Under the pieces are notes generated by a model. The model saw nothing but the letters and a program-made list of their open reading frames with translations. It made no database searches and had not been told where the DNA came from. Source: Bacillota bacterium (GTDB taxonomy: Bacteria; Bacillota; Negativicutes; CTSoil-072). Taken from it: 64,000 nt of DNA. Of the stretch, positions 11,109 through 41,020 are shown piece after piece (position 1 is the stretch's first letter; each line of letters starts with the position of its first letter). The DNA is taken from contig JAGFZV010000020.1 in assembly GCA_017889545.1 (NCBI GenBank), positions 1 to 64,000 on the forward strand, written 5' to 3'. Made by a program: the position numbers and the translations under genes.

Positions 11109-11124
11109 TGGCATGATTCTTGCA
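11109..11124 (+). promoter_or_regulatory. Sigma-54 promoter of the molybdoenzyme operon
   Basis: TGGCATGATTCTTGCA matches the sigma-54 consensus TGGCAYR-N4-TTGCW at every fixed position, with GG and GC the right distance apart. It lies about 100 bases upstream of the oxidoreductase start. No activator gene is adjacent; the nearest sigma-54 activators in the window are at 29.6 and 38.4 kb. Confidence 0.85.
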
Positions 11125-11224: not shown

Positions 11225-13579
11225 ATGTCGAATGAAACATGGCAGTGGCAAGAGGACGGCTGCACAGTTAGCCGTTCTACCCAGTGGTCCGGCCCAGGCT
11301 GCCATAATGGGTGCGGAATTCTTTACTACACAAAAGGAGATAAATTAATCAAGGTCGAGGGAGATGCGACAAATCCTTATAACGCCGGGCGCCTATGCAT
11401 GCGCTGTCTTAATTTAACAGAAGCAGTAAACCATCCCGACCGCCTGAAATGGCCGCTTAAGCGCGCAGGCAATCGGGGCGAAAATAAATGGGAGCGCATT
11501 CCATGGGATGAAGCCTATGATATCATCGAAGAAAAAGTAAAATCGATTAAAAAAGACTATGGCCCGGAAAGCATCATTGGCATGGAAGGTACCGGACGAA
11601 ACATTATCTGGCAAGTTCCTTATCTCACCTACGCCGGATTTGAAAGCCCGAACTATACGCTGGGCTTTCTGAGTGGTGACGCCTGTTACCTGCCCAGAGC
11701 GGCACAACAGGCCGTAATGCAAAGTGACTTCTTCGTTACGGACTGTGCCCAACATTTCGAAACACGTTATGAGACACCGGAATATGAAGTGCCGAAAGTG
11801 ATTATAATTTGGGGTAATAATCCGATTATCAGTAACGGCGACGGTTTCTTCGGGCACTGGATTATCGACTTGATGAGAAAAGGCTCCAAGCTGATCGTTA
11901 TTGATCCAAAGTTGACATGGTTGGCATCCAAAGCAGATTTCTGGCTTCAATTACGGCCCGGAACCGATTCTGCTTTAGCCATGTCCATGCTGAACGTGAT
12001 CATTAATGAAAGTCTTTATGACAAAGAGTTTGTCGAAAAATGGACCGCCGGCTTTGAAAAATTGAAGGAATGCGTCCAGGAATATCCTCCGGAAATAGCA
12101 TCTGAAATCACCTGGGTTCCAAAAGAAATGATTATTGAAGCAGCTCGTTTCTACGCCAAAAACAAACCGGCAGCCATCCAGTGGGGTCTTGCCGTTGATC
12201 AACAGGTGACCGGCATTTCCGCCGCCCAAGCCATTACCAGTCTGTGGACGATCACCGGCAACGTAGACGTCCCTGGCGGCAATGTGATCTCAAAAAGCGG
12301 TTTCAATGTAGACGATGGCTATAACTGCGGGATTGAGTGGGTAAGCGAAGACACCCTGCAGAAACGTTTGGGAAATGAAAGCTATCCGTTAAAAATGTAC
12401 GGATTTGCTTCCACCGCACATGGAGATTCTGTGTTAAAAGCGATTGAGTCGGGCAAACCGTATCCGGTCAAAATGCTTTGGCTGCAAACAACGAATCCGA
12501 TCGCCAATATGGGATCGGAAGCACCGCGTGTTTACGATGCCATGCGCAAAGTAGACTTCAACGTTGTGGTAGACTTGTTCATGACTCCAACAGCAGTAGC
12601 TTGTGCAGATATTGTGCTGCCTGCCGGCATGAGCCTCGAACGGGATAGTTTCCGGGCTTGGTTTGCACCTCTGCGGGCAATATCCAAGATCATCCAATAT
12701 GAAGAGTGCAAGTCGGATGAACAAATCGTTCTTGATTTAGGCAAACGCCTCAACCCGGCCGCTTTCCCATGGAAAACGGTAGAGGAATGGCTGGAATGGA
12801 AATTCGGCAACGCCAAAGATCACTATCCTGATGCGTTTCAAATCCCTTGGTCTGGGAAAACTTACCGGGAACGAGGCAATACCCGCGGCGTAACCTTTAA
12901 AGAACTTCAGGAACGCGGTTGGATATATGCGGACTGGCAATATCGCAAATATGAAAAAGGCCTTCTGCGCCGCGACCGGCAACCCGGCTTTAATACGGCC
13001 GATGGCAAGATCCAATTATTTAATACCCTTTTTGACGACTGGGGCCTTAATCCATTGCCTTACCATGAGGAACCGCCGGAAAGCCCGTATTCCGCACCGG
13101 AACTTTACAAAGAATACCCCTTAATTCTCACTTCCGGCGCCCGTTCTTGGGAATTCTTCCATTCCGAACATCGCCAACAGCCCACGATGCGTATATTCCA
13201 TCCGGATCCATTGGTAACCATTCACCCTGATAAGGCCAAAGAATTAGGAATTAAAGATGGCGACTGGGTCTGGCTTGAAAGCAAGCGAGGCAGATGCAAA
13301 CAAAAAGCAAAACTTGCAGCAACTCTTAATCCCAAAGTAGTCAGCGCCGAGCATGGATGGTGGTTCCCCGAAAAGCCAGGCGCCGAGCCGATTCTGTTTG
13401 GCGTGTTTGACTCCAATATCAACAATCTGACAGCACAATGCCAAAACGGCGAAACAGGATATGGCGCCCCCAACAAAGGCTTGCTTTGCAAAATATACAA
13501 AGTCACCGAAGAAAACAGTCAAGTAATGCCCACGATGCAAGTAACCAAGATGGGAGGGTTCGGATATGACAGAAAATAA
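11225..13579 (+). CDS. Molybdopterin (bis-MGD) oxidoreductase, DMSO reductase superfamily, catalytic subunit
   Basis: 784 residues. An N-terminal Fe-S region is followed by the molybdopterin domains and a C-terminal dinucleotide-binding domain (LILTSGARSWEFFHSEHRQ, then TIHPDKAKELGIKDGDWVW). The N-terminal cluster motif is unusual: Cys26, Cys30 and Cys58 are present (GPGCHNGCG and GRLCMRC), but the usual first cysteine is a glycine; Cys61 may substitute. A candidate metal ligand is Cys154 in SGDACYLPR. There is no twin-arginine signal, so the enzyme is cytoplasmic. The layout of one large subunit plus one small Fe-S subunit recalls the hydratase/dehydroxylase branch of the superfamily rather than respiratory reductases. 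The substrate is not known. Confidence 0.85.
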   Translation: MSNETWQWQEDGCTVSRSTQWSGPGCHNGCGILYYTKGDKLIKVEGDATNPYNAGRLCMRCLNLTEAVNHPDRLKWPLKRAGNRGENKWERIPWDEAYDIIEEKVKSIKKDYGPESIIGMEGTGRNIIWQVPYLTYAGFESPNYTLGFLSGDACYLPRAAQQAVMQSDFFVTDCAQHFETRYETPEYEVPKVIIIWGNNPIISNGDGFFGHWIIDLMRKGSKLIVIDPKLTWLASKADFWLQLRPGTDSALAMSMLNVIINESLYDKEFVEKWTAGFEKLKECVQEYPPEIASEITWVPKEMIIEAARFYAKNKPAAIQWGLAVDQQVTGISAAQAITSLWTITGNVDVPGGNVISKSGFNVDDGYNCGIEWVSEDTLQKRLGNESYPLKMYGFASTAHGDSVLKAIESGKPYPVKMLWLQTTNPIANMGSEAPRVYDAMRKVDFNVVVDLFMTPTAVACADIVLPAGMSLERDSFRAWFAPLRAISKIIQYEECKSDEQIVLDLGKRLNPAAFPWKTVEEWLEWKFGNAKDHYPDAFQIPWSGKTYRERGNTRGVTFKELQERGWIYADWQYRKYEKGLLRRDRQPGFNTADGKIQLFNTLFDDWGLNPLPYHEEPPESPYSAPELYKEYPLILTSGARSWEFFHSEHRQQPTMRIFHPDPLVTIHPDKAKELGIKDGDWVWLESKRGRCKQKAKLAATLNPKVVSAEHGWWFPEKPGAEPILFGVFDSNINNLTAQCQNGETGYGAPNKGLLCKIYKVTEENSQVMPTMQVTKMGGFGYDRK

Positions 13580-24846: not shown

Positions 24847-25016
24847 GCAGGAATTCGCTAGAATATACAGAAATGATACATCGAATTAAGTTGGGAGGGC
24901 TTACCCATGATTAACGATGACCTAATTAAAAAATACTCCGGTGGTAATAAATCAATTATCGACTTCAAAGGGTGTACCCGAAAGCAAATCGTCAAGGATG
25001 CATGGGAACAATCAGA
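24847..25016 (+). repeat. 170-bp repeat (R170), copy 1, abutting the RAYT pseudogene
   Basis: Nearly identical over its whole length to 32095-32264. It starts GCAGGAATTCGCTAG and ends CAATCAGA. Inside it is a GGGAGGG site and a short open frame. Its right edge touches the C-terminal end of a decayed RAYT transposase gene. Confidence 0.9.
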
Positions 25017-25029
25017 GATACTTGGATGA
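24907..25029 (+). CDS. Small open frame in R170 copy 1 (40 residues), unknown
   Basis: Opens with MINDDLIKKYSGGNKSIIDF after a GGGAGGG site and stops just past the repeat edge. The only internal amino-acid difference from copy 2 is Asp4 to Val. I do not recognise it. It is charged, with one cysteine and no membrane segment. It could be a truncated first part of a larger mobile-element protein. Confidence 0.35.
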   Translation: MINDDLIKKYSGGNKSIIDFKGCTRKQIVKDAWEQSEILG

Positions 25030-25448
25030 ATGCCCATGATTCTGGCAATTTGTCGTTGCGTTACACCTTTTATGCGTTTAATTTGGCAAATCATTCCATT
25101 GCGTTGATCTATCTTTAACCTTTGCAAAATCCCGATCGGTTGCCCGTTCATCAATTCTTGAATTTCCCATGAATTGATCCGTATTGTCTTTTTTCATAAA
25201 ATCATCTAATTCCTTTATTCTCGATTCTCTGTTTCTGTGCAAAGAATCGAGAATAAAGGAAAAATCAGTCAAACCAAAAAAATCTTGTCCTTTATAATAT
25301 GCTTTACAGCTACTCCAGTTATATTTTTCAGGTATTGATGTTAGCTGTGCTTTAACTGAGTTATTATGAATGCATCTTAGCGCACTCAATAAATATGCCT
25401 CGGTTTCTATTGTCTCGCTTTAAAAACGGTTCTGAAAAACATGTCCGA
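25017..25448 (-). pseudogene. Decayed RAYT (REP-associated tyrosine) transposase
   Basis: Clear DNA and protein match to the intact RAYT at 40250-41020, from residue 94 to the C-terminus. Shared stretches include the segment running from YNWSS to DFFGLTDFSFILDSLH, and GVTQRQIAR. The first 93 residues, including the HxH metal motif and catalytic tyrosine, are gone, and frames shift along the remainder. It lies directly downstream of the lpd stop. Confidence 0.88.
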
Positions 25449-25459
25449 ATGAAGATAAA

Positions 25460-26845
25460 TTAATTTACGCCATGAATCGATAATCCTTGTATGCCTTCGG
25501 CGGCTTCAAGAAAAGCCTCAGAAAGGGTCGGATGTGCGTGGATTACTTCGGTCAGGCGCTCTGATGTTAATCCTAGTTCGAGAGCCAATGCGCCCTCTGC
25601 AATCAAATCGGAAGCGTGTGCGCCAACAATATGAACTCCTAACAAATGGTTTGTTTCCGATTCGGCTATTATTTTGACGAATCCGGTTGTTTCTCCCATA
25701 GCATGAGCTTTCCCGGACGAGAGCAACGAAAATTTAGCCGTTTTAATAGAGTAGCCCTTTTTTATTGCAGCCTCTGCCGTCAAACCAACTGACCCTATTT
25801 CGGGCTGCGTAAATATGCAGGATGGCACCTTTGCATAATCAATCGACCTTGTGATCCCGCAAATTTTGTCTACAGCAATCAACGCTTGCGTTGCTGCAAC
25901 ATGGGCTAGTTGCAATCTTCCTGTAACATCACCAATGGCAAAGACTCCAGGAACAGAAGTCTCTAACTGCTCATTAACAATAATTTCTCCCCGGTCTCCT
26001 TGCTCTACGCCCACCTCTTGCAGCCCCAAGCCTGAAGAGTTCAAAACCCTCCCAATCGACAGCAGCACTCTATCACCCTCAACCTCTTTCCCGTTTTCCA
26101 ACTGCACAACTACTTTACCCGCTTCTTTACGCACCGCTGCAATGGAGGCACGCGTTACAATATCAATCTTTTGCCGTCTAAAGAGTCCCGACATCAACTG
26201 AGAAACTTCCCGATCCATGGTCGATAAAATGCTCGGTTGCATTTCAATGATTGTCACCTTGCTTCCCAGTATTGAAAAAATTGACGCGAACTCACAACCA
26301 ATAACACCCCCGCCAATAATAATCAATCTTTCAGGAATAGACGACATCATCAATGCTTCATTCGAAGTGATGACCCTTTGCCCATCATAGCCCAAGGAAC
26401 TAATAAGCGCTGGACCAGAGCCGGTTGCTATAACAATATGGCGCGCATTCACAATGCGAACATTCTGATCAACATTCGAAACAGATAACGTTCGATCATC
26501 AATGAATCTGGCTTCCCCTTGGCAGTAATCGACTTTGTTCTTTATTAATAACGCTTCAATACCCGCTTTCAATTGTTCCACTACCCGTTGCTTCCGGTCC
26601 ATCAATTTGCTGAAGTTCACATGAACTGGACCCGTTTCAATTCCAAATTCTTGAGAATGTCGAATTTTCGAGATCATTTCCGCTCCAGCTGCTAAAGCCT
26701 TAGTAGGAATACACCCCCAGTTAAGACAAGTCCCGCCGATTTGTTCCTTCTCAATCAAGATAACCGACTTTCCCTTTTGAGCGGCCCGGACCGCGGCGGT
26801 ATATCCGCCAGGGCCGCCTCCAATAATTGCAACATCATACTTCAA
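25460..26845 (-). CDS. lpdA: Dihydrolipoyl dehydrogenase
   Basis: 461 residues. FAD-binding GGGPGGYTAA, the redox disulfide GGTCLNWGCIPTK, an NAD-binding GGGVIGCEF, and the C-terminal His-Glu dyad region (HAHPTLSEAF) are all present. The start chosen is the TTG (KYDVAIIGGG) five bases after AGAGGTGA; a GTG three codons earlier overlaps that site. It oxidises dihydrolipoyl groups using NAD+, or runs in reverse with NADH. Its neighbours are a lipoyl carrier (GcvH) and an OsmC thiol peroxidase, not a 2-oxoacid dehydrogenase or glycine decarboxylase. Confidence 0.95.
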   Translation of the reverse strand: MKYDVAIIGGGPGGYTAAVRAAQKGKSVILIEKEQIGGTCLNWGCIPTKALAAGAEMISKIRHSQEFGIETGPVHVNFSKLMDRKQRVVEQLKAGIEALLIKNKVDYCQGEARFIDDRTLSVSNVDQNVRIVNARHIVIATGSGPALISSLGYDGQRVITSNEALMMSSIPERLIIIGGGVIGCEFASIFSILGSKVTIIEMQPSILSTMDREVSQLMSGLFRRQKIDIVTRASIAAVRKEAGKVVVQLENGKEVEGDRVLLSIGRVLNSSGLGLQEVGVEQGDRGEIIVNEQLETSVPGVFAIGDVTGRLQLAHVAATQALIAVDKICGITRSIDYAKVPSCIFTQPEIGSVGLTAEAAIKKGYSIKTAKFSLLSSGKAHAMGETTGFVKIIAESETNHLLGVHIVGAHASDLIAEGALALELGLTSERLTEVIHAHPTLSEAFLEAAEGIQGLSIHGVN

Positions 26846-26857
26846 CAAACTCACCTC

Positions 26858-27244
26858 TTATTTCCCTGCTTGATCTAACATAGCTGCATACTCTGCTGAA
26901 CTCATCAGTGCCTCAACCTGTTCCATATTCTTAATTTCCACCAATACCATGTAGCCATCGCTGTATGGCGCCTGATTGATGATTTCCGGGTTATCAAAAA
27001 TCTTAGCATTGATTTCGACAATTTTTCCATCAATTGGTGCAATCACATCCGAAGTGGACTTTACCGATTCCAACGATCCAAGCGCTGTACCAGCGGTGAT
27101 CATTTCTGAGTCATCAAAAACATTCGCAAAAACAATATCCCGAAGCTGTTTTTGAGCGAAATCGGTAATTCCTATCCGGGCCAAGTTTCCCTCCACCTTT
27201 ACCCAGGTGTGAGCGCGATAATATTTATATTCCTGCGGATCCAT
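26858..27244 (-). CDS. gcvH: GcvH-like lipoyl carrier protein
   Basis: 128 residues, the normal length for glycine cleavage H protein. The lipoylation site is Lys62 in LESVKSTSD. The hammerhead fold motif IGITDFAQKQLRDIVFANV is intact. The genes for GcvT and GcvP are absent from this operon, so the protein may serve as a mobile lipoyl arm between Lpd (13 bp downstream) and OsmC (12 bp upstream). A role in glycine cleavage with gcvTP elsewhere in the genome remains possible. Confidence 0.93.
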   Translation of the reverse strand: MDPQEYKYYRAHTWVKVEGNLARIGITDFAQKQLRDIVFANVFDDSEMITAGTALGSLESVKSTSDVIAPIDGKIVEINAKIFDNPEIINQAPYSDGYMVLVEIKNMEQVEALMSSAEYAAMLDQAGK

Positions 27245-27255
27245 AATGTCCTCCT

Positions 27256-27720
27256 TTATACGCCTTTGGTTTCATGAGAAGTTGCAAATGGATAATCATA
27301 ACGCTCCCCATTAATTTCAAATGAATAAGAAATCTCTGCCGCTTTGTTTACCATGTTTGAAACTGAACAATACGTCTCATCTGTTAATTTAAGCGCCTGA
27401 TTCACTTTGCCTGGGATCAGTCCATGCCCGGTAAAACGATAGATAATTTGGATACCGGTAAATATTTTCGGATGGTCCTCAGCCCGTTGTCCCTTTACAT
27501 CAATCACCAAACTATCGAAGGAAATTCGCATTTTATTCAAAATATGGGTCAGCTCTATCCCGCTGCAGCCAGCGACTGCAGTCAATAATAGTTCCATCGG
27601 CCTTATTCCCTGATTCATTCCACCATAAATCGGTCCGGCGTCCATTGAGACCATATGCCCAGAATCATCCTGTCCCACGAAATTCATATTTTCCTGCCAA
27701 CTTACACGCACATCTGCCAT
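27256..27720 (-). CDS. OsmC/Ohr family thiol peroxidase
   Basis: 154 residues with both family cysteines: Cys52 in AVAGCSGIEL and Cys118 in DETYCSVSNM. OsmC/Ohr proteins reduce organic hydroperoxides, and in the Ohr branch the physiological reductant is dihydrolipoyl protein recycled by lipoamide dehydrogenase. The gene order OsmC-GcvH-Lpd fits that chain. The subgroup resembles YhfA-like OsmC proteins, for which peroxidase activity is less certain. Confidence 0.88.
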   Translation of the reverse strand: MADVRVSWQENMNFVGQDDSGHMVSMDAGPIYGGMNQGIRPMELLLTAVAGCSGIELTHILNKMRISFDSLVIDVKGQRAEDHPKIFTGIQIIYRFTGHGLIPGKVNQALKLTDETYCSVSNMVNKAAEISYSFEINGERYDYPFATSHETKGV

Positions 27721-27768
27721 ATTCTTCAGCCTCCATTTTTAAATTACATTTGATACAACAGTTCAAAA

Positions 27769-29388
27769 CTATACAATTTTTTTTGCCGTGTTCTTCTCCT
27801 CGCGCATTACAACCAGCGTCACCACCATGACAAATAATCCTGTCGCAATCGCAAAGAGAGATAATCCCAGCAAGCCCATTTTTGTTAACAATGCAAAATT
27901 CATCGAACTATATAGTAATGTTCCAACAGAAACAAGTCCGCCAGCAATCCCGATGTTTTTCTTTAGCGAAGAGATGTTCTTGCCGCCAATTTGCCATTTA
28001 CCCGCTTGCTCAATTAGGCAAAATGCGATCATTGTAAGAATATTGACAGTCATTCCGGGAAAAGCAGGGTGAATGTTCATAAAAAACTTCGCCGGATGCC
28101 AGTCTCCCAAATAGTACCAAGTCAATCCGCCGATAAAACCGAAGGCCATTGCCGCAATCGCCGCCCTTGCAGTCGCCATCGGCCAAAATAGCGCGGCGAC
28201 AACCGGAGCAAAAGTTGCCCCATTACGAAGCGTCCATCCCAGTATATTCCACCAAGCAGCCTGATCGCTCCGCAAAAGGCTGAAACCAATCATAATAATC
28301 GTTAATGCTACCAAGGAAATTTTCGTGTAGAACACTTTCTTTTCATCAGATGCTGCCGGGTTCACTGCGCCCATAACATCACGTCCCAGGCTAGTTGCTC
28401 CTGAAAACTGACAAGGAGCTCCCCAGCCCAAAGCACAAGCCCAGACGCCAAGGAAAAATACGCCAACCAACGGAGCAGGGAGAACCTGTGCCAGATAGAG
28501 AGGAACCTGTATCATTCCACGTGCACCGCCAGGCACAACAATAGCTGCCGCTACTCCAAAAGCAACTCCCAAGACTACGAAAATAATATTTCCACCGACT
28601 GCCATCAGCAAACCTTTGCGGCCTTCTTCGACAGTCCTGCATGATAATGTCATTTGCAAGCAAGCCTGTGCCAACAAAATATTAATAAAAAAAGTCGCAA
28701 ACCAAGCAATGATTATTTGCAGGCCAACATTGGTCGGATCAAACATTTCCGGACGTTGAGCCGCAAAGTCCATAAATCCTGCTAATCCCGGTTTAATAAA
28801 TAGTGCAAAGAGACCAACTAAAAACATGGCAAGGAAAACCACACTATTTGCCGTTTGAGTGACAACCACCGACCACATTCCACCAGCCTGAAGATACACC
28901 AGCAATAATACAGCACTTATAGTCACCGTCACTGTTAATGGCAAACTGGTGAATGCCGAAATTGCCGAAGCAAAAGCCAACGTGGTCGCCACAGAAAACA
29001 TTGGAAAGGTAAATGCAGTAATTGCACCTCCTAACCCAAGTGCTACTCGTCCAAAATGCTCACCAATGAGTCCTGATACAGTAACCTTCATTTTCTTATG
29101 GAATAGGCCCAATAAGGCCGCAATAATAAGAATATGTGTCATTTCTGCAACCCCATACCAAGCTGCAGAGACACCCTTAATGTAAGAAAGTTCCATTACC
29201 GCGATAAAAGTCGATCCAGAAAACAATCCTGTTATACAAACTCCAACCATCCAGGGCTTAAAGCTTCTTCCTCCGACCCAAAAACCCTCTGCGGAAACTG
29301 CTTTGCGTTTTACGACATTTCCCAAAACAATAAGAATTGCCGTATACGCCACTGCCAATCCCAAAATCCAATATCCGTATTCGTTCAA
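27769..29388 (-). CDS. Sodium:solute symporter (SSS family)
   Basis: 539 residues with about thirteen hydrophobic segments and the SSS features GGRSFKPWMVGVCITGLFSG near the N-terminus and a GMWSVVVTQ segment. The start is a TTG seven bases after AAGGGGA. It is the first gene of the operon SSS-osmC-gcvH-lpd and stands behind a sigma-54 promoter, so its solute is probably the inducer or substrate of the pathway. The substrate is unknown; SSS carriers take up sugars, amino acids, betaines, pantothenate or carboxylates. Confidence 0.9.
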   Translation of the reverse strand: MNEYGYWILGLAVAYTAILIVLGNVVKRKAVSAEGFWVGGRSFKPWMVGVCITGLFSGSTFIAVMELSYIKGVSAAWYGVAEMTHILIIAALLGLFHKKMKVTVSGLIGEHFGRVALGLGGAITAFTFPMFSVATTLAFASAISAFTSLPLTVTVTISAVLLLVYLQAGGMWSVVVTQTANSVVFLAMFLVGLFALFIKPGLAGFMDFAAQRPEMFDPTNVGLQIIIAWFATFFINILLAQACLQMTLSCRTVEEGRKGLLMAVGGNIIFVVLGVAFGVAAAIVVPGGARGMIQVPLYLAQVLPAPLVGVFFLGVWACALGWGAPCQFSGATSLGRDVMGAVNPAASDEKKVFYTKISLVALTIIMIGFSLLRSDQAAWWNILGWTLRNGATFAPVVAALFWPMATARAAIAAMAFGFIGGLTWYYLGDWHPAKFFMNIHPAFPGMTVNILTMIAFCLIEQAGKWQIGGKNISSLKKNIGIAGGLVSVGTLLYSSMNFALLTKMGLLGLSLFAIATGLFVMVVTLVVMREEKNTAKKIV

Positions 29389-29595: not shown

Positions 29596-31677
29596 TCATG
29601 ATTGAACCATTATTCCATACTGTTGGGCTTTTCGAAGTAATGTTGAATGAGATATTCCCAACATCTGCGCTGTTTTTCGCAAACTATTTTTTGTCTCTAA
29701 TGCCATGCGAATTAATTCGCGTTCTGTTGTTTCTTTTGCCTGCTGCAAAGGAATAATATCCATCAATTTCGGGGTCCATTCTTCAATTTGCATTACTTCT
29801 CGAAATTCGATAGGCAGATGCCGTGGGGTAATGACCTCTTCGTCGGACATGATAACTACTCGCTCAATCAAATTCTTAAGTTCCCGAACATTTCCTGGCC
29901 ATGAATAATTTTCAATTAACTGGCATGTCTCCAGACTTAACTTTTTATCCATATTGTTTTTTTTATTGAAATGATTTAAAAAAGAAATCGCCAAGATTAA
30001 AATATCTTGCTTTCGGTCCTGTAATGAAAGGATATGCAAAGGAATAACATTTAATCGATAGTATAAATCTTCACGAAAACTTTTATTAACAACTAACTGT
30101 TTAAGATCTTTATTGGTAGCTGCCAAGATACGAATATTAAGTTTCACCGGCTTTGATCCGCCAATCCGATAGATAACCTGTTCTTGTAATGCCCGCAACA
30201 ATTTCACTTGCATATGAAGTGGCATATCCCCAATTTCATCCAAAAATACTGTTCCACCATCAGCTAATTCTAATAATCCTGGTTTTCCATCACGATGAGC
30301 TCCAGTAAAAGCGCCTTTTTCATAGCCAAAAAATTCCGACTCGATCAGCGGTTCAGGAATGGCTCCACAATTAATGCAAATCATCGGTTTTTCAGCTCGC
30401 AAGCTATGTTTATGAATATATTTTGCCAATTTTTCTTTTCCAACTCCTGATGGCCCGTTGAGCATGACCGTTGAATCTGTTGGCGCCACACGCAAAGCTT
30501 GTTGAACGACACGCTGCATAGCTAAGCTTTTAAAGATGAGGTCATCGTCCTCAAATTGCCTCGAACGCAACTCACCGAGTTCCAATGCCGCCCGGGCCGC
30601 TTCCATTTTGAATAAGTTTAATTCGGTAAAATCACGTAAAGTGATCACAATTTGGGCAATATGACCAATATCATTAGTTACGATACTTCCTGAAAAGACG
30701 ATATCTTTGCCATCTGTCGTTTTTATCGCTAAATTAAAACTTTGCAGGCTCGCGGTAATGTTTTTATATATGCTATCGAGTTGGCAATGCTTGTCTATTA
30801 ATGTCGCAACATTTTTACCAATCAAGTCCTCTTGGGTTCCATCGCCAATGATCCGTAAATAACTATCATTCACGCGGACAATCGTTCCACCGCAATCGAT
30901 GACAACAATTCCATCATAACAGGACTGAATAACCCCTTCCAATTCCTTATTTAGTAACCATGCCGATTGTAACTCTCCGGATAATTCTTCTAATGCAGAA
31001 ATGTCTTGCAAGACAAGAACATAGCCTCCATTATGGTCTTCTCTTTCAATCGGACTATGTTGAATCAAGATCGTTTTATTCCCGATCCGAAACCGTTCTA
31101 CTAATGGGTCTGAAGAAGTTTCAAAATGTTTCAAATCAAGATCAAGATGTTTTAGTAACACCTCTGCAGATTGTCCTAAAATATCTTTGCTTACTAGACC
31201 AGTCAGTTTTTCTGCTGCTGCATTGAAATAACATACTTCACCGGTATGGTCCACTCCGATAATTCCATTATAAATCGAACGGAGCATAACACTTAAATCA
31301 GATTCCGTCTTTTCCAATGCGTGGTGAACTTTGTTAATTAGCTCCATCCTCGTCAGAACTCCCGCCAAGAAGCCATGTTTATTTAAAATGATCAGGCGAT
31401 CAACAGGGAGAGCACAAACTTCATTAAAATCCGTATCCTCAGGAAAAGTTGAAATATTTGGATCCATAATCTGTTCAATGGATGAAAAAAACGAAGCACC
31501 TTCTTTTAACGCCTGTAATAGTCGGAAAACGGTTAAAATCCCAACCACTTTGCCTTCTTCGTTGATAACCGGTGCACAATTTACTCCCTGCTGATTATAA
31601 AGTTCACATGCATCGGCTATGGTATTTCCGCATAGTAAAGTCTTAGGATTTTCCAACATAATTTCTTTTACCAACAC
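29596..31677 (-). CDS. Sigma-54 activator with CBS pair and two PAS domains
   Basis: 693 residues. Two CBS motifs cover about 1-115, where adenine nucleotides usually bind. Two PAS domains follow (near 120-230 and 245-355). The AAA+ domain has Walker A GPSGVGKE, the sigma-54 contact loop GAFTGA and Walker B GGTVFLDEIGD. A Fis-type helix-turn-helix (LRKTAQMLGISHSTLLRKA) closes the protein. The start is a GTG eight bases after AGGAGG. It most likely controls the operon downstream, whose promoter at 29439 is a perfect sigma-54 site. There is no receiver domain, so the signal is sensed directly. Confidence 0.93.
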   Translation of the reverse strand: MLVKEIMLENPKTLLCGNTIADACELYNQQGVNCAPVINEEGKVVGILTVFRLLQALKEGASFFSSIEQIMDPNISTFPEDTDFNEVCALPVDRLIILNKHGFLAGVLTRMELINKVHHALEKTESDLSVMLRSIYNGIIGVDHTGEVCYFNAAAEKLTGLVSKDILGQSAEVLLKHLDLDLKHFETSSDPLVERFRIGNKTILIQHSPIEREDHNGGYVLVLQDISALEELSGELQSAWLLNKELEGVIQSCYDGIVVIDCGGTIVRVNDSYLRIIGDGTQEDLIGKNVATLIDKHCQLDSIYKNITASLQSFNLAIKTTDGKDIVFSGSIVTNDIGHIAQIVITLRDFTELNLFKMEAARAALELGELRSRQFEDDDLIFKSLAMQRVVQQALRVAPTDSTVMLNGPSGVGKEKLAKYIHKHSLRAEKPMICINCGAIPEPLIESEFFGYEKGAFTGAHRDGKPGLLELADGGTVFLDEIGDMPLHMQVKLLRALQEQVIYRIGGSKPVKLNIRILAATNKDLKQLVVNKSFREDLYYRLNVIPLHILSLQDRKQDILILAISFLNHFNKKNNMDKKLSLETCQLIENYSWPGNVRELKNLIERVVIMSDEEVITPRHLPIEFREVMQIEEWTPKLMDIIPLQQAKETTERELIRMALETKNSLRKTAQMLGISHSTLLRKAQQYGIMVQS

Positions 31678-38211: not shown

Positions 38212-38227
38212 TGCAACTTCCGTGCCA
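38212..38227 (-). promoter_or_regulatory. Sigma-54 promoter of the dpaL operon
   Basis: On the minus strand TGGCACGGAAGTTGCA is a full match to TGGCAYR-N4-TTGCW. The YgeV-like activator gene ends just upstream, behind its own terminator. Confidence 0.92.
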
Positions 38228-38357: not shown

Positions 38358-40148
38358 TCACTTTGATAATTGATACTCTTCAATTCTCCGGTATAGCGTG
38401 GCAATCCCAATGCCCAATTGTTTCGCTGCCAATTGCTTTCCTTCCGTAGTATCGCCGTTAATCTGCAATGCTTTTTGAATCAGCATTCGTTCCATTTCCT
38501 TGATCGGCCGTATGCTGTCGGCCTCAATAAGGCAATTGTCATAATTGCGTTCAACCGGATTAGGCGGTATATCCTTGGCAATGTAGTCCTGGATATTATT
38601 GGGCAGCGTTTCTTTTGTAAGGCTGCCCATATCATCTACCATGTTAATCATAAATTCTATGGTATTTTCAAGCTCCCTTACATTACCCGGCCAAGGATAG
38701 TCAATAAGTTCCCGTATCGCATCCTCGTCAATACCGAACACTTTTTTGTCAAATAAGCGACTATATTTTTCGATAAGATGCATTGCAATCAGTCTAATAT
38801 CCTCTTTCCGCTCGCGCAAGGGAGGAATTTCCAAGGGGATTACATTTAGCCGGTAATACAGGTCCTCACGAAACTTATTCTCCGCAATCATCGGTACCAA
38901 ATTCTTATTGGTTGCCGCAATGACCCGAACGTCAATATCGATTTGCTGATTGGAACCAATCCGGGTAATTTTTCGTTCCTGCAGAACCCTCAGCAGTTTG
39001 ACCTGAAGATACAAAGGCATGTCGCCAACTTCGTCTAAAAAAATAACACCTTTATTGGCCAATTCAAATTTGCCGATCTTTCCTCGGGGATCTGCCCCAG
39101 TAAAGGCGCCTTTGACGTAGCCAAACAACTCACTTTCCAGCAAGGTGTCGGGAATGGCGCCGCAATTTATCGCCACAAAGGGCTGGGAATGGCGTACGCT
39201 CTCCGTATATATCGCCCTAGCCACCAGTTCTTTGCCCGTCCCACTCTCACCGGTGATTAACACAGTAGACTTCGATTCTGCTATTTTTAATATTTTCCTT
39301 TTTAATTGCCGCATTACCTCTGCTTCACCCAAAATATGATCTAGTCTGATCTCGTTGGCAATATTGGTTAAATCGTAGATCTTTGATTTTACTTCCTTCA
39401 TTTCGTTGAATATTAATATTTTTGCATATTCAGCTACCCGAGGGATAACAGGCAGCATGTCACCCATCAAATAGAACACTTTTTCATTCAAAGTAACCTT
39501 AAATTCATCCAGCCCAAGAATATTATCGCCGGTAGCTTCAATATTGATCTTTTTTTGCAAACAATCCCGCGTCAAAAATAGCTGTTTCAGTGCGCTGCCG
39601 TTAATGTGAACAATTCTGTCATCCTTATCGAGAATTAAGACGCCCTTTCCCATGTTGTCAATTACAACATTAAGCAATTTCATTAACATGGATGTTCGTT
39701 CGTTTTCTTTGTTCTCATAGGCTTTGATGCTGATAAACCCGGCGATTTGATCAAGAAACTCCCGATAAACATCCAGTTCCCGCAACAAATGATCCTTTTG
39801 TTCATTATCAAAGCAGATTAACCCGATCACTCCAATAATTTCGTTATTGAGTTTAATAGGAGTACAAAGTTCTAATTTTTCCTCACATGACTGTCGTTTA
39901 GGGCAAGCTGCACAGAGAGGATGATTGCCCGGCTCTTCAATAAGCTGCGGTTCGCCCGTCTCTAAAACAGTCTTATACACAAAGCCCTCGCAAGACATAT
40001 CTTCATTAATCTTGCTTTCAAAAACGCCTGTTCCCGCAATCCGATAAAGGTTCGCATCAACGATTTCAACATCCACCTTGATAATGTGGGAAATGATTTT
40101 AGCATAGGTAATAACTGTGTCCTGAATATCCTTTAAAACTGATTTCAT
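38358..40148 (-). CDS. YgeV-like sigma-54 activator with cysteine-rich GAF-like sensor
   Basis: 596 residues from the ATG five bases after GAGG. The 35-codon longer frame translates two REP elements (SKKNVPLLR twice) and is artefactual. The N-terminal GAF-like domain contains Cys53 and a tight group Cys79, Cys82, Cys88, Cys95, as in redox or Fe-S sensors. A PAS-like segment follows, then the AAA+ domain (GESGTGKE, GAFTGA, GVIFLDEVGD) and a Fis-type HTH (AAKQLGIGIATLYRR). By position it should drive the sigma-54 promoter of the dpaL operon. Confidence 0.92.
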   Translation of the reverse strand: MKSVLKDIQDTVITYAKIISHIIKVDVEIVDANLYRIAGTGVFESKINEDMSCEGFVYKTVLETGEPQLIEEPGNHPLCAACPKRQSCEEKLELCTPIKLNNEIIGVIGLICFDNEQKDHLLRELDVYREFLDQIAGFISIKAYENKENERTSMLMKLLNVVIDNMGKGVLILDKDDRIVHINGSALKQLFLTRDCLQKKINIEATGDNILGLDEFKVTLNEKVFYLMGDMLPVIPRVAEYAKILIFNEMKEVKSKIYDLTNIANEIRLDHILGEAEVMRQLKRKILKIAESKSTVLITGESGTGKELVARAIYTESVRHSQPFVAINCGAIPDTLLESELFGYVKGAFTGADPRGKIGKFELANKGVIFLDEVGDMPLYLQVKLLRVLQERKITRIGSNQQIDIDVRVIAATNKNLVPMIAENKFREDLYYRLNVIPLEIPPLRERKEDIRLIAMHLIEKYSRLFDKKVFGIDEDAIRELIDYPWPGNVRELENTIEFMINMVDDMGSLTKETLPNNIQDYIAKDIPPNPVERNYDNCLIEADSIRPIKEMERMLIQKALQINGDTTEGKQLAAKQLGIGIATLYRRIEEYQLSK

Positions 40149-40159
40149 AATTACCTCGC

Positions 40160-40186
40160 GAAGCAAGGGGACGTTCTTTTTGCTTC
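40160..40186 (-). repeat. REP-like hairpin, copy 3 (inverted)
   Basis: The same 27-base unit in the opposite orientation to copies 1, 2 and 5. It lies in the untranslated leader of the YgeV-like gene, ending 12 bases before the start codon. Confidence 0.88.
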
Positions 40187-40207
40187 TCCCAGCTGTTGCT
40201 TTTAAGC

Positions 40208-40234
40208 GAAGCAAGGGGACGTTCTTTTTGCTTC
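40208..40234 (-). repeat. REP-like hairpin, copy 4 (inverted), 3' flank of RAYT
   Basis: A second inverted copy 48 bases from copy 3. The stem extends by two bases on each side (GCGAAGC and GCTTCGC). It lies 16 bases past the RAYT stop codon. Confidence 0.88.
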
Positions 40235-40249
40235 GCTCACCTCCTATTG

Positions 40250-41020
40250 TCAAATTTTAAAAATAATACTTTGATGAACGCCCGTGACCCTGGCAATTTG
40301 CCTCTGTGTTACACCTTCCAAAACTTTAACCCGTCTGATTATTTCATTGCGTTGATCCATCTTCAGGTTTTGCAAAGTTTCAACCGGTTGCCCGTGCAGC
40401 AGGTTTTGAATTTCCCGCATCAAATCATGATCACTTTTTCGTACCTTTACCTCAAAGTCCATGAATTGATCTGTACTGTCTTTTTTCATAAAATCGGCAA
40501 ATGCCGTAATAGCCGCTTCTCTGTTGCTATGCAAAGAATCGAGAATAAATGAAAAATCAGTCAAACCAAAAAAATCTTGTCCTTTATAATAAGCCTGACA
40601 ACTGCTCCAGTTATATTCTTCAGGTATTGACGATATATTTGCTTCAACTGGGTTATTATGAATGTATCTGAGTGCGCCCAATAAATATGCTTCGGTTTCC
40701 ACTGCCTCACTTTGAAACCTGTTCTGAAAAACATGTCCGACTCGATCATATTTTTTATTATACCACCAAGCATAACTTGTACCAATACGCTGCATAGTAA
40801 CAGACACCGTTTCTGCTTTTTCATGCAACAAGAGATGGATATGGTTATCCATCAAACAATATCCGTAAAGAGCACAACTGCCATTTTCTTTAATATGTTT
40901 CATGGTTCTCAAAAAATGGGAATAATCTTCATCGTCAAAAAAAATATCTTGGCGATTTATTCCACGCATCATTATATGATAAATTCCGCTGGCACTCTTT
41001 TTCCTCGCACATCTTGCCAT
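40250..41020 (-). CDS. REP-associated tyrosine transposase (RAYT, IS200-like Y1 family)
   Basis: 256 residues. The HUH metal motif is His60-Ile-His62 in MDNHIHLLL; catalytic tyrosine candidates are Tyr83 and Tyr87 in SYAWWYNKKY. The C-terminal third adds a helix-turn-helix-like region (GVTQRQIARVTGVHQS). RAYTs cut and join REP hairpins and lack own terminal repeats. It is flanked by inverted REP copies at 40208 and 41064, the classic REPtron layout. A decayed homologue lies at 25017. Confidence 0.92.
   Translation of the reverse strand: MARCARKKSASGIYHIMMRGINRQDIFFDDEDYSHFLRTMKHIKENGSCALYGYCLMDNHIHLLLHEKAETVSVTMQRIGTSYAWWYNKKYDRVGHVFQNRFQSEAVETEAYLLGALRYIHNNPVEANISSIPEEYNWSSCQAYYKGQDFFGLTDFSFILDSLHSNREAAITAFADFMKKDSTDQFMDFEVKVRKSDHDLMREIQNLLHGQPVETLQNLKMDQRNEIIRRVKVLEGVTQRQIARVTGVHQSIIFKI

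Follow-up and report, generated by a model that had tools for sequence, protein, structure and literature searches.

A sigma-54-controlled operon joining an OsmC-family protein, a GcvH-type lipoyl carrier, lipoamide dehydrogenase and a sodium/solute symporter

Layout and control of the operon

Within the window (the whole 64 kb stretch of DNA that was analysed), the minus strand between positions 31677 and 25460 carries, in the order of transcription, genes for an activator, an SSS-family symporter, an OsmC-family protein, a GcvH-type carrier and lipoamide dehydrogenase (Lpd). The features of the locus are as follows.

25460..26854, minus strand: Lpd (dihydrolipoyl dehydrogenase), 464 aa; TIGR01350 at 557.9 bits, cut-off 408.8
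26858..27244, minus strand: GcvH-type lipoyl carrier, 128 aa; TIGR00527 and PRK01202 above cut-off
27256..27720, minus strand: OsmC-family protein, assigned by its sequence to the YhfA class, 154 aa; matches to PF02566 and PRK10738
27769..29388, minus strand: SSS-family sodium/solute symporter, 539 aa; matches to TIGR00813 and PF00474
29439..29454, minus strand: sigma-54 (-24/-12) promoter TGGCATGGTTATTGCA; exact pattern match, 50 bp upstream of the symporter start
29596..31677, minus strand: sigma-54-dependent activator, PrdR-like, 693 aa; PF00158, PF00571, PAS and HTH_50

An earlier, sequence-only reading of this DNA had described the OsmC, GcvH and Lpd genes as adjacent, in an operon with a symporter and with gcvT and gcvP missing, and had singled out Cys52 and Cys118 of OsmC and Lys62 of GcvH. 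All of this is borne out, with the four genes lying on the minus strand in the order given. The same reading put the gaps between the OsmC, GcvH and Lpd genes at 12-13 bp, slightly above what is measured; the compact packing stands, and the distances from the symporter through OsmC and GcvH to Lpd are 48, 11 and 3-9 bp, the last depending on the start codon of Lpd.

Control by sigma-54, also proposed at that stage, is borne out. An exact -24/-12 promoter precedes the first gene and is kept in most relatives, whilst only 0.16 exact sites are expected by chance in a whole 64 kb window. The adjoining activator contains CBS, PAS and AAA domains in profile searches; it scores 457.8 bits with the PrdR model, below the cut-off of 795, and is thus PrdR-like rather than PrdR. 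A homologue of this activator adjoins nearly every related locus. Matches to sigma-70-type promoters and to terminators were at chance level only and were left unused.

The OsmC protein, the lipoyl carrier and Lpd

The OsmC protein belongs to the Ohr/OsmC fold superfamily, with a PF02566 score of 65.3 bits and a predicted model of pLDDT 91.6. The closest solved folds are 2egt (A. aeolicus Aq_1549), 1ml8 (E. coli YhfA) and 1vla (T. maritima TM0919), and structure comparison of the model gave Z scores of 16.7 to 2egt and 1ml8 and of 12-13 to Ohr and OsmC. Cys52 and Cys118 are invariant across 28 aligned relatives (in one genome, G261, the OsmC gene is present and had been missed by the gene call), and the same alignment shows no conserved Arg in the first strand hairpin. 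Met42 lies ten residues before Cys52, at the position where XfOhr has Glu51 ten before Cys61, and Glu43 lies nine before Cys52; this register is our own reading of the sequence alignment, not a structural superposition. The catalytic Arg and Glu of Ohr/OsmC thiol peroxidases were accordingly not found. The protein belongs to the YhfA class. Members of this class keep both cysteines but not the Arg and Glu that flank the peroxidatic one, and the class is excepted from peroxidase activity, with no activity assigned (PMC4069020, PMC8945050, PMC5962072). The OsmCs linked to the symporter form one clade (support 97/97) with the signature Glu56 and His59, both on the Cys52 helix, His59 following Cys52 by seven residues in the same predicted helix.

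Lpd scores well above the cut-off of the lipoamide_DH equivalog and has the CxxxxC disulfide of a dihydrolipoyl dehydrogenase (C43 and C48 in GGTCLNWGC), together with the HPTLSE motif. The carrier matches the GcvH profile, has its lipoyl Lys62 in LESVKSTSD (the ESVK motif), and contains no cysteines in its 128 residues. When compared with ten GcvHs taken as the glycine-cleavage type, it is without 7 of the 33 residues that are invariant among them, although one of the seven (L6) reflects only a trimmed sequence end. In the tree it groups with the operon GcvH of another family, f112 (support 97/91). A single origin of all the operon GcvHs was not rejected (p 0.09 and 0.24), and we therefore do not claim independent recruitment.

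Four GcvH genes, each in a different setting, are present in the genome. One lies in a complete gcvT-gcvH-gcvPA-gcvPB operon on another contig (contig 10), which answers the question, raised with the sequence-only reading, of whether gcvT and gcvP exist elsewhere; each of the other three, including the one in the window, has an Lpd gene beside or near it. Co-regulation of gcvT and gcvP with the present operon had been named as evidence that would count against that reading, and none was seen: no sigma-54 site was found around the contig 10 operon with up to one mismatch allowed. The operon gcvH is thus neither encoded nor co-regulated with glycine-cleavage genes. Because this separate and complete operon exists, the GcvH of the window operon is an extra one; its lineage is not that of glycine cleavage. 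Two lipoate ligases of the LplA type are encoded in the genome, and a targeted search (the basis for all gene absences reported for this genome) found no LipA; the operon GcvH is presumably lipoylated in this organism.

Distribution among relatives and other partners of the symporter

OsmC together with the symporter was searched for in 398 genomes of the phylum and 113 of one class, and the surroundings of the matches were then read. The taxonomic order to which the organism belongs is represented by this genome alone, and the comparison is with other families. The core of activator, symporter and OsmC recurs in six further families. The distribution of the OsmC, GcvH and Lpd trio had been suggested as a check, and the association of GcvH or Lpd with OsmC is repeated in four other families with the gene order shuffled. 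In four genomes of f112 the order is s54-Lpd-SSS-OsmC-GcvH-LipS1-LipS2, where s54 is the activator and the lipoyl synthases LipS1 and LipS2, both above their model cut-offs, directly continue the run. All six genomes of family f74 have Lpd and five of them also GcvH, these five in the order GcvH-s54-SSS-OsmC-Lpd; f65 has s54-SSS-OsmC-Lpd-GcvH, and in f75 GcvH joins the core as SSS-OsmC-s54-GcvH. The activator gene separates GcvH from OsmC in f74 and f75, and the detached GcvH there carries a separate sigma-54 site, which is an exact match in five genomes of the six (G151, G441, G444, G445 and G121) and has one mismatch in G203. Because it recurs in other genomes, the gene association exceeds chance.

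In every genome checked, another GcvH lies beside gcvT or gcvP, and it is these other GcvHs, not those of the OsmC locus, that gcvT and gcvP accompany. In Moorella-type loci neither GcvH nor Lpd adjoins OsmC and the symporter, and because of these loci a dedicated carrier is not obligatory; in G153 the single contig is too short to show GcvH or Lpd neighbours.

Members of the symporter clade match at E 1e-160 or lower. Six symporter relatives lie in loci without OsmC, and none of the six has an adjoining GcvH or a closely related Lpd. Four of these loci contain a UROD-type methyltransferase, a corrinoid protein and a methyltetrahydrofolate methyltransferase; another (G462) has two sulfatases, a PAPS-reductase-family gene and two other transporter genes, and one has a multihaem cytochrome as neighbour. 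A TauE/SafE gene is found near the symporter in G042, and in G421 the corrinoid protein next to the symporter gets its highest score from a glycine-betaine model. A search of solved structures gave no informative relative for the symporter or for the UROD methyltransferase. The symporter tree does not separate OsmC loci from corrinoid loci; the two are interleaved, which requires at least four changes.

GcvH and Lpd track OsmC rather than the symporter. One or the other adjoins the symporter in five of six OsmC-bearing families and in none of the six loci without OsmC (Fisher p 0.015, with families that are not fully independent), and a tree-aware test of the same contrast gave p 0.5, with only three independent pairs on supported branches and significance therefore out of reach. 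Given the methyltransferase loci and the neighbours related to sulfur, a plausible candidate for the substrate is a compound that is methylated or contains organic sulfur.

A candidate reductase chain, its alternatives and known systems

We propose, with a probability of roughly one half, that the operon, which lies in an anaerobic bacterium, codes for a thiol-disulfide reductase chain directed at a compound imported by the SSS symporter. Electrons from NADH would pass to Lpd, which would reduce the lipoyl arm on Lys62 of a dedicated GcvH; the dihydrolipoyl arm would in turn reduce a Cys52-Cys118 disulfide in the YhfA-class OsmC, and the OsmC thiols would then act on what the symporter brings in. 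Disulfides, thiosulfonates, sulfoxides and other organosulfur compounds that can be reduced are examples of possible substrates. The PrdR-like activator may turn on the set through sigma-54 when the substrate is present, as with Stickland-type reductases. We infer both the direction of electron flow and the substrate, and co-regulation with the symporter does not imply that OsmC acts on the imported solute. That GcvH serves OsmC is supported by their conserved association and co-regulation, namely by conservation in shuffled order, by LipS1 and LipS2 in the f112 locus and by the sigma-54 sites of detached GcvHs. That relatives share the set suggests a reductase of catabolism or respiration, with an imported compound as its substrate, rather than ordinary peroxide defence.

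A broader version of this proposal is more tentative: a new dissimilatory reductase of anaerobes, in which a YhfA-class OsmC with its own GcvH, Lpd and sometimes lipoyl synthase would use NADH to reduce imported organosulfur compounds, and which could be exchanged, behind one and the same symporter, for a module of corrinoid methyltransferases. If true, it would provide the first function for the YhfA class and make lipoate a redox carrier in anaerobic respiration or fermentation.

Among the alternatives, the lipoyl arm could carry a fragment as in LbpA systems, with OsmC passing sulfane sulfur or another group to lipoyl-GcvH and Lpd re-oxidising or re-reducing it. We consider this unlikely. 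LipS1 and LipS2, first known from sulfur oxidisers with LbpA (PMC10332631), do sit in the f112 locus, and a sulfur theme runs near the symporter in G042 and G462, but the window GcvH is without the two LbpA cysteines (PMC6067878), and Hdr, DsrE and TusA genes were not recognised beside the window operon.

The sequence-only reading had proposed a peroxidase chain from NADH through Lpd and lipoyl-GcvH to OsmC. Its electron-chain half, which includes the symporter and sigma-54 control, gains strong support from the shuffled conservation, the distinct GcvH, LipS1/LipS2 and the separate sigma-54 sites; its peroxidase half does not, because what is known of lipoyl-dependent Ohr/OsmC peroxidases does not cover the YhfA class and the context of the locus is catabolic, not oxidative defence. 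A chain for the removal of organic hydroperoxides, in which the symporter would be only a bystander, thus appears improbable. It would fit the presence of both OsmC cysteines, the reduction of Ohr and OsmC by lipoylated proteins with NADH electrons (PMC4069020, PMC8945050) and the Ohr structures with dihydrolipoamide (6ebg, 6ebd). Against it are the exception of the YhfA class, without Arg and Glu beside the peroxidatic Cys, from peroxidase activity in the same two papers, Met42 at the XfOhr Glu51 position and a hairpin without Arg (in the register read from sequence), regulation by a PrdR-like sigma-54 activator, and a symporter lineage that also serves corrinoid methyltransferase loci. Very improbable is an account in which GcvH and Lpd are additional components of glycine cleavage, induced along with a symporter for amino acids or betaine, and OsmC is unrelated: the operon GcvH passes glycine-cleavage models and the G421 corrinoid protein favours glycine betaine, but the complete gcv operon has its own GcvH and no sigma-54 site, several residues that never vary in the glycine-cleavage set are lost from the operon GcvHs, and gcvT and gcvP keep to other GcvHs.

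For the reductase chain that we favour, parts of the background are already known: it is established that Ohr and OsmC are reduced in a lipoyl-dependent manner, and LbpA systems offer examples of GcvH-like carriers that stand alone (PMC10332631, PMC6067878). In the open-access literature we found no text joining OsmC, GcvH and lipoamide dehydrogenase, and none linking an OsmC of the YhfA class to a GcvH and an Lpd dedicated to it. The YhfA class is widespread, with no function, partner or electron donor on record. This locus names lipoyl-GcvH and its Lpd as a candidate donor, together with an importer and a promoter that can be induced, and the question is therefore directly testable. The four GcvH genes in four settings of one genome are further evidence for GcvH-type lipoyl carriers beyond glycine cleavage.

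Several known systems resemble parts of the operon. The lipoyl-dependent Ohr/OsmC peroxidases (Cussiol et al. 2010, as cited in PMC4069020) share the fold, the two cysteines and the proposed route from NADH through Lpd and a lipoyl protein; their lipoyl partner is a 2-oxoacid dehydrogenase subunit instead of a dedicated GcvH, they have neither symporter nor sigma-54 activator, and they differ from the operon OsmC, which is of the YhfA class and is missing the catalytic Arg and Glu. LbpA, the lipoate-binding protein of sHdr sulfur oxidation, is likewise a stand-alone GcvH-like carrier, with LipS1/LipS2 nearby in some loci; it has two conserved cysteines (PMC6067878) and Hdr-like genes, whereas the operon has neither, and by the cysteine criterion of that paper the operon GcvH is not an LbpA. 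The YhfA class itself (1ml8, 1vla, 2egt) contains the closest relatives of the operon OsmC in sequence and fold, but Glu56, His59, Tyr32 and a C-terminal Tyr, which mark the symporter-linked clade, are mostly missing from its other members.

In the AhpC-AhpD-DlaT-Lpd NADH peroxidase of M. tuberculosis, Lpd and a lipoyl protein also feed a thiol peroxidase, with another peroxidase family and another lipoyl carrier; the system is not known to form an operon with a transporter. Staphylococcal GcvH-L/SirTM macrodomain operons likewise place a GcvH-like protein outside glycine cleavage and provide it with a lipoylation enzyme of its own; we know of no OsmC in them, and, unlike in those operons, no sirtuin or macrodomain gene was seen at this locus. 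The regulon of the present operon is not among the sigma-54 Stickland regulons listed in the portion of PMC6615313 drawn on here, but it resembles that of PrdR and proline reductase in having a CBS/PAS sigma-54 activator that adjoins a reductive catabolic operon.

Sigma-54 sites and short frames elsewhere in the window

Besides the promoter of the symporter-OsmC-GcvH-Lpd operon, two further exact sigma-54 sites are present in the window, and short frames lie 3' of Lpd:

11109-11124, plus strand: third exact site, ~100 bp upstream of a large gene (11225-13579) named by eye as molybdopterin-oxidoreductase-like
24858-25389, minus strand: short frames, similar by eye to parts of a transposase-like protein (40250-41020)
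38212-38227, minus strand: second exact site, flanked by a catabolic-looking gene run and the gene for an activator (38358-40253)

The last members of this catabolic-looking run are RidA and an MFS transporter. Judged by eye, the short frames may be a decayed copy of the transposase-like protein.

Other GcvH genes of the source genome

A further GcvH and Lpd pair is located on contig 5 (locus L017, 7470-10193), where its partners are a radical-SAM/glutaredoxin-like protein and two proteins labelled arylsulfate-sulfotransferase-like by eye rather than through a family search. Three members of this arrangement, namely its GcvH, radical-SAM protein and large protein, are also neighbours in a relative, G203. 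The fourth GcvH, on contig 40 (locus L018, 6693-10542), carries a fused N-terminal domain; around it lie small related proteins and an Lpd, an arrangement repeated in the Moorella-family genome G371 (locus L138).

The symporter lineage in related genomes

In G371, the OsmC-symporter module adjoins a UROD-corrinoid-methyltransferase-symporter module (loci L120 and L066); each has a separate sigma-54 activator, and a CO-dehydrogenase-family protein follows the pair. In another relative, G462, a possible sigma-54-controlled operon (locus L105, 7945-16631) combines a symporter of the same SSS lineage with two sulfatases, a PAPS-reductase-family protein, and DASS and DUF1646 proteins.
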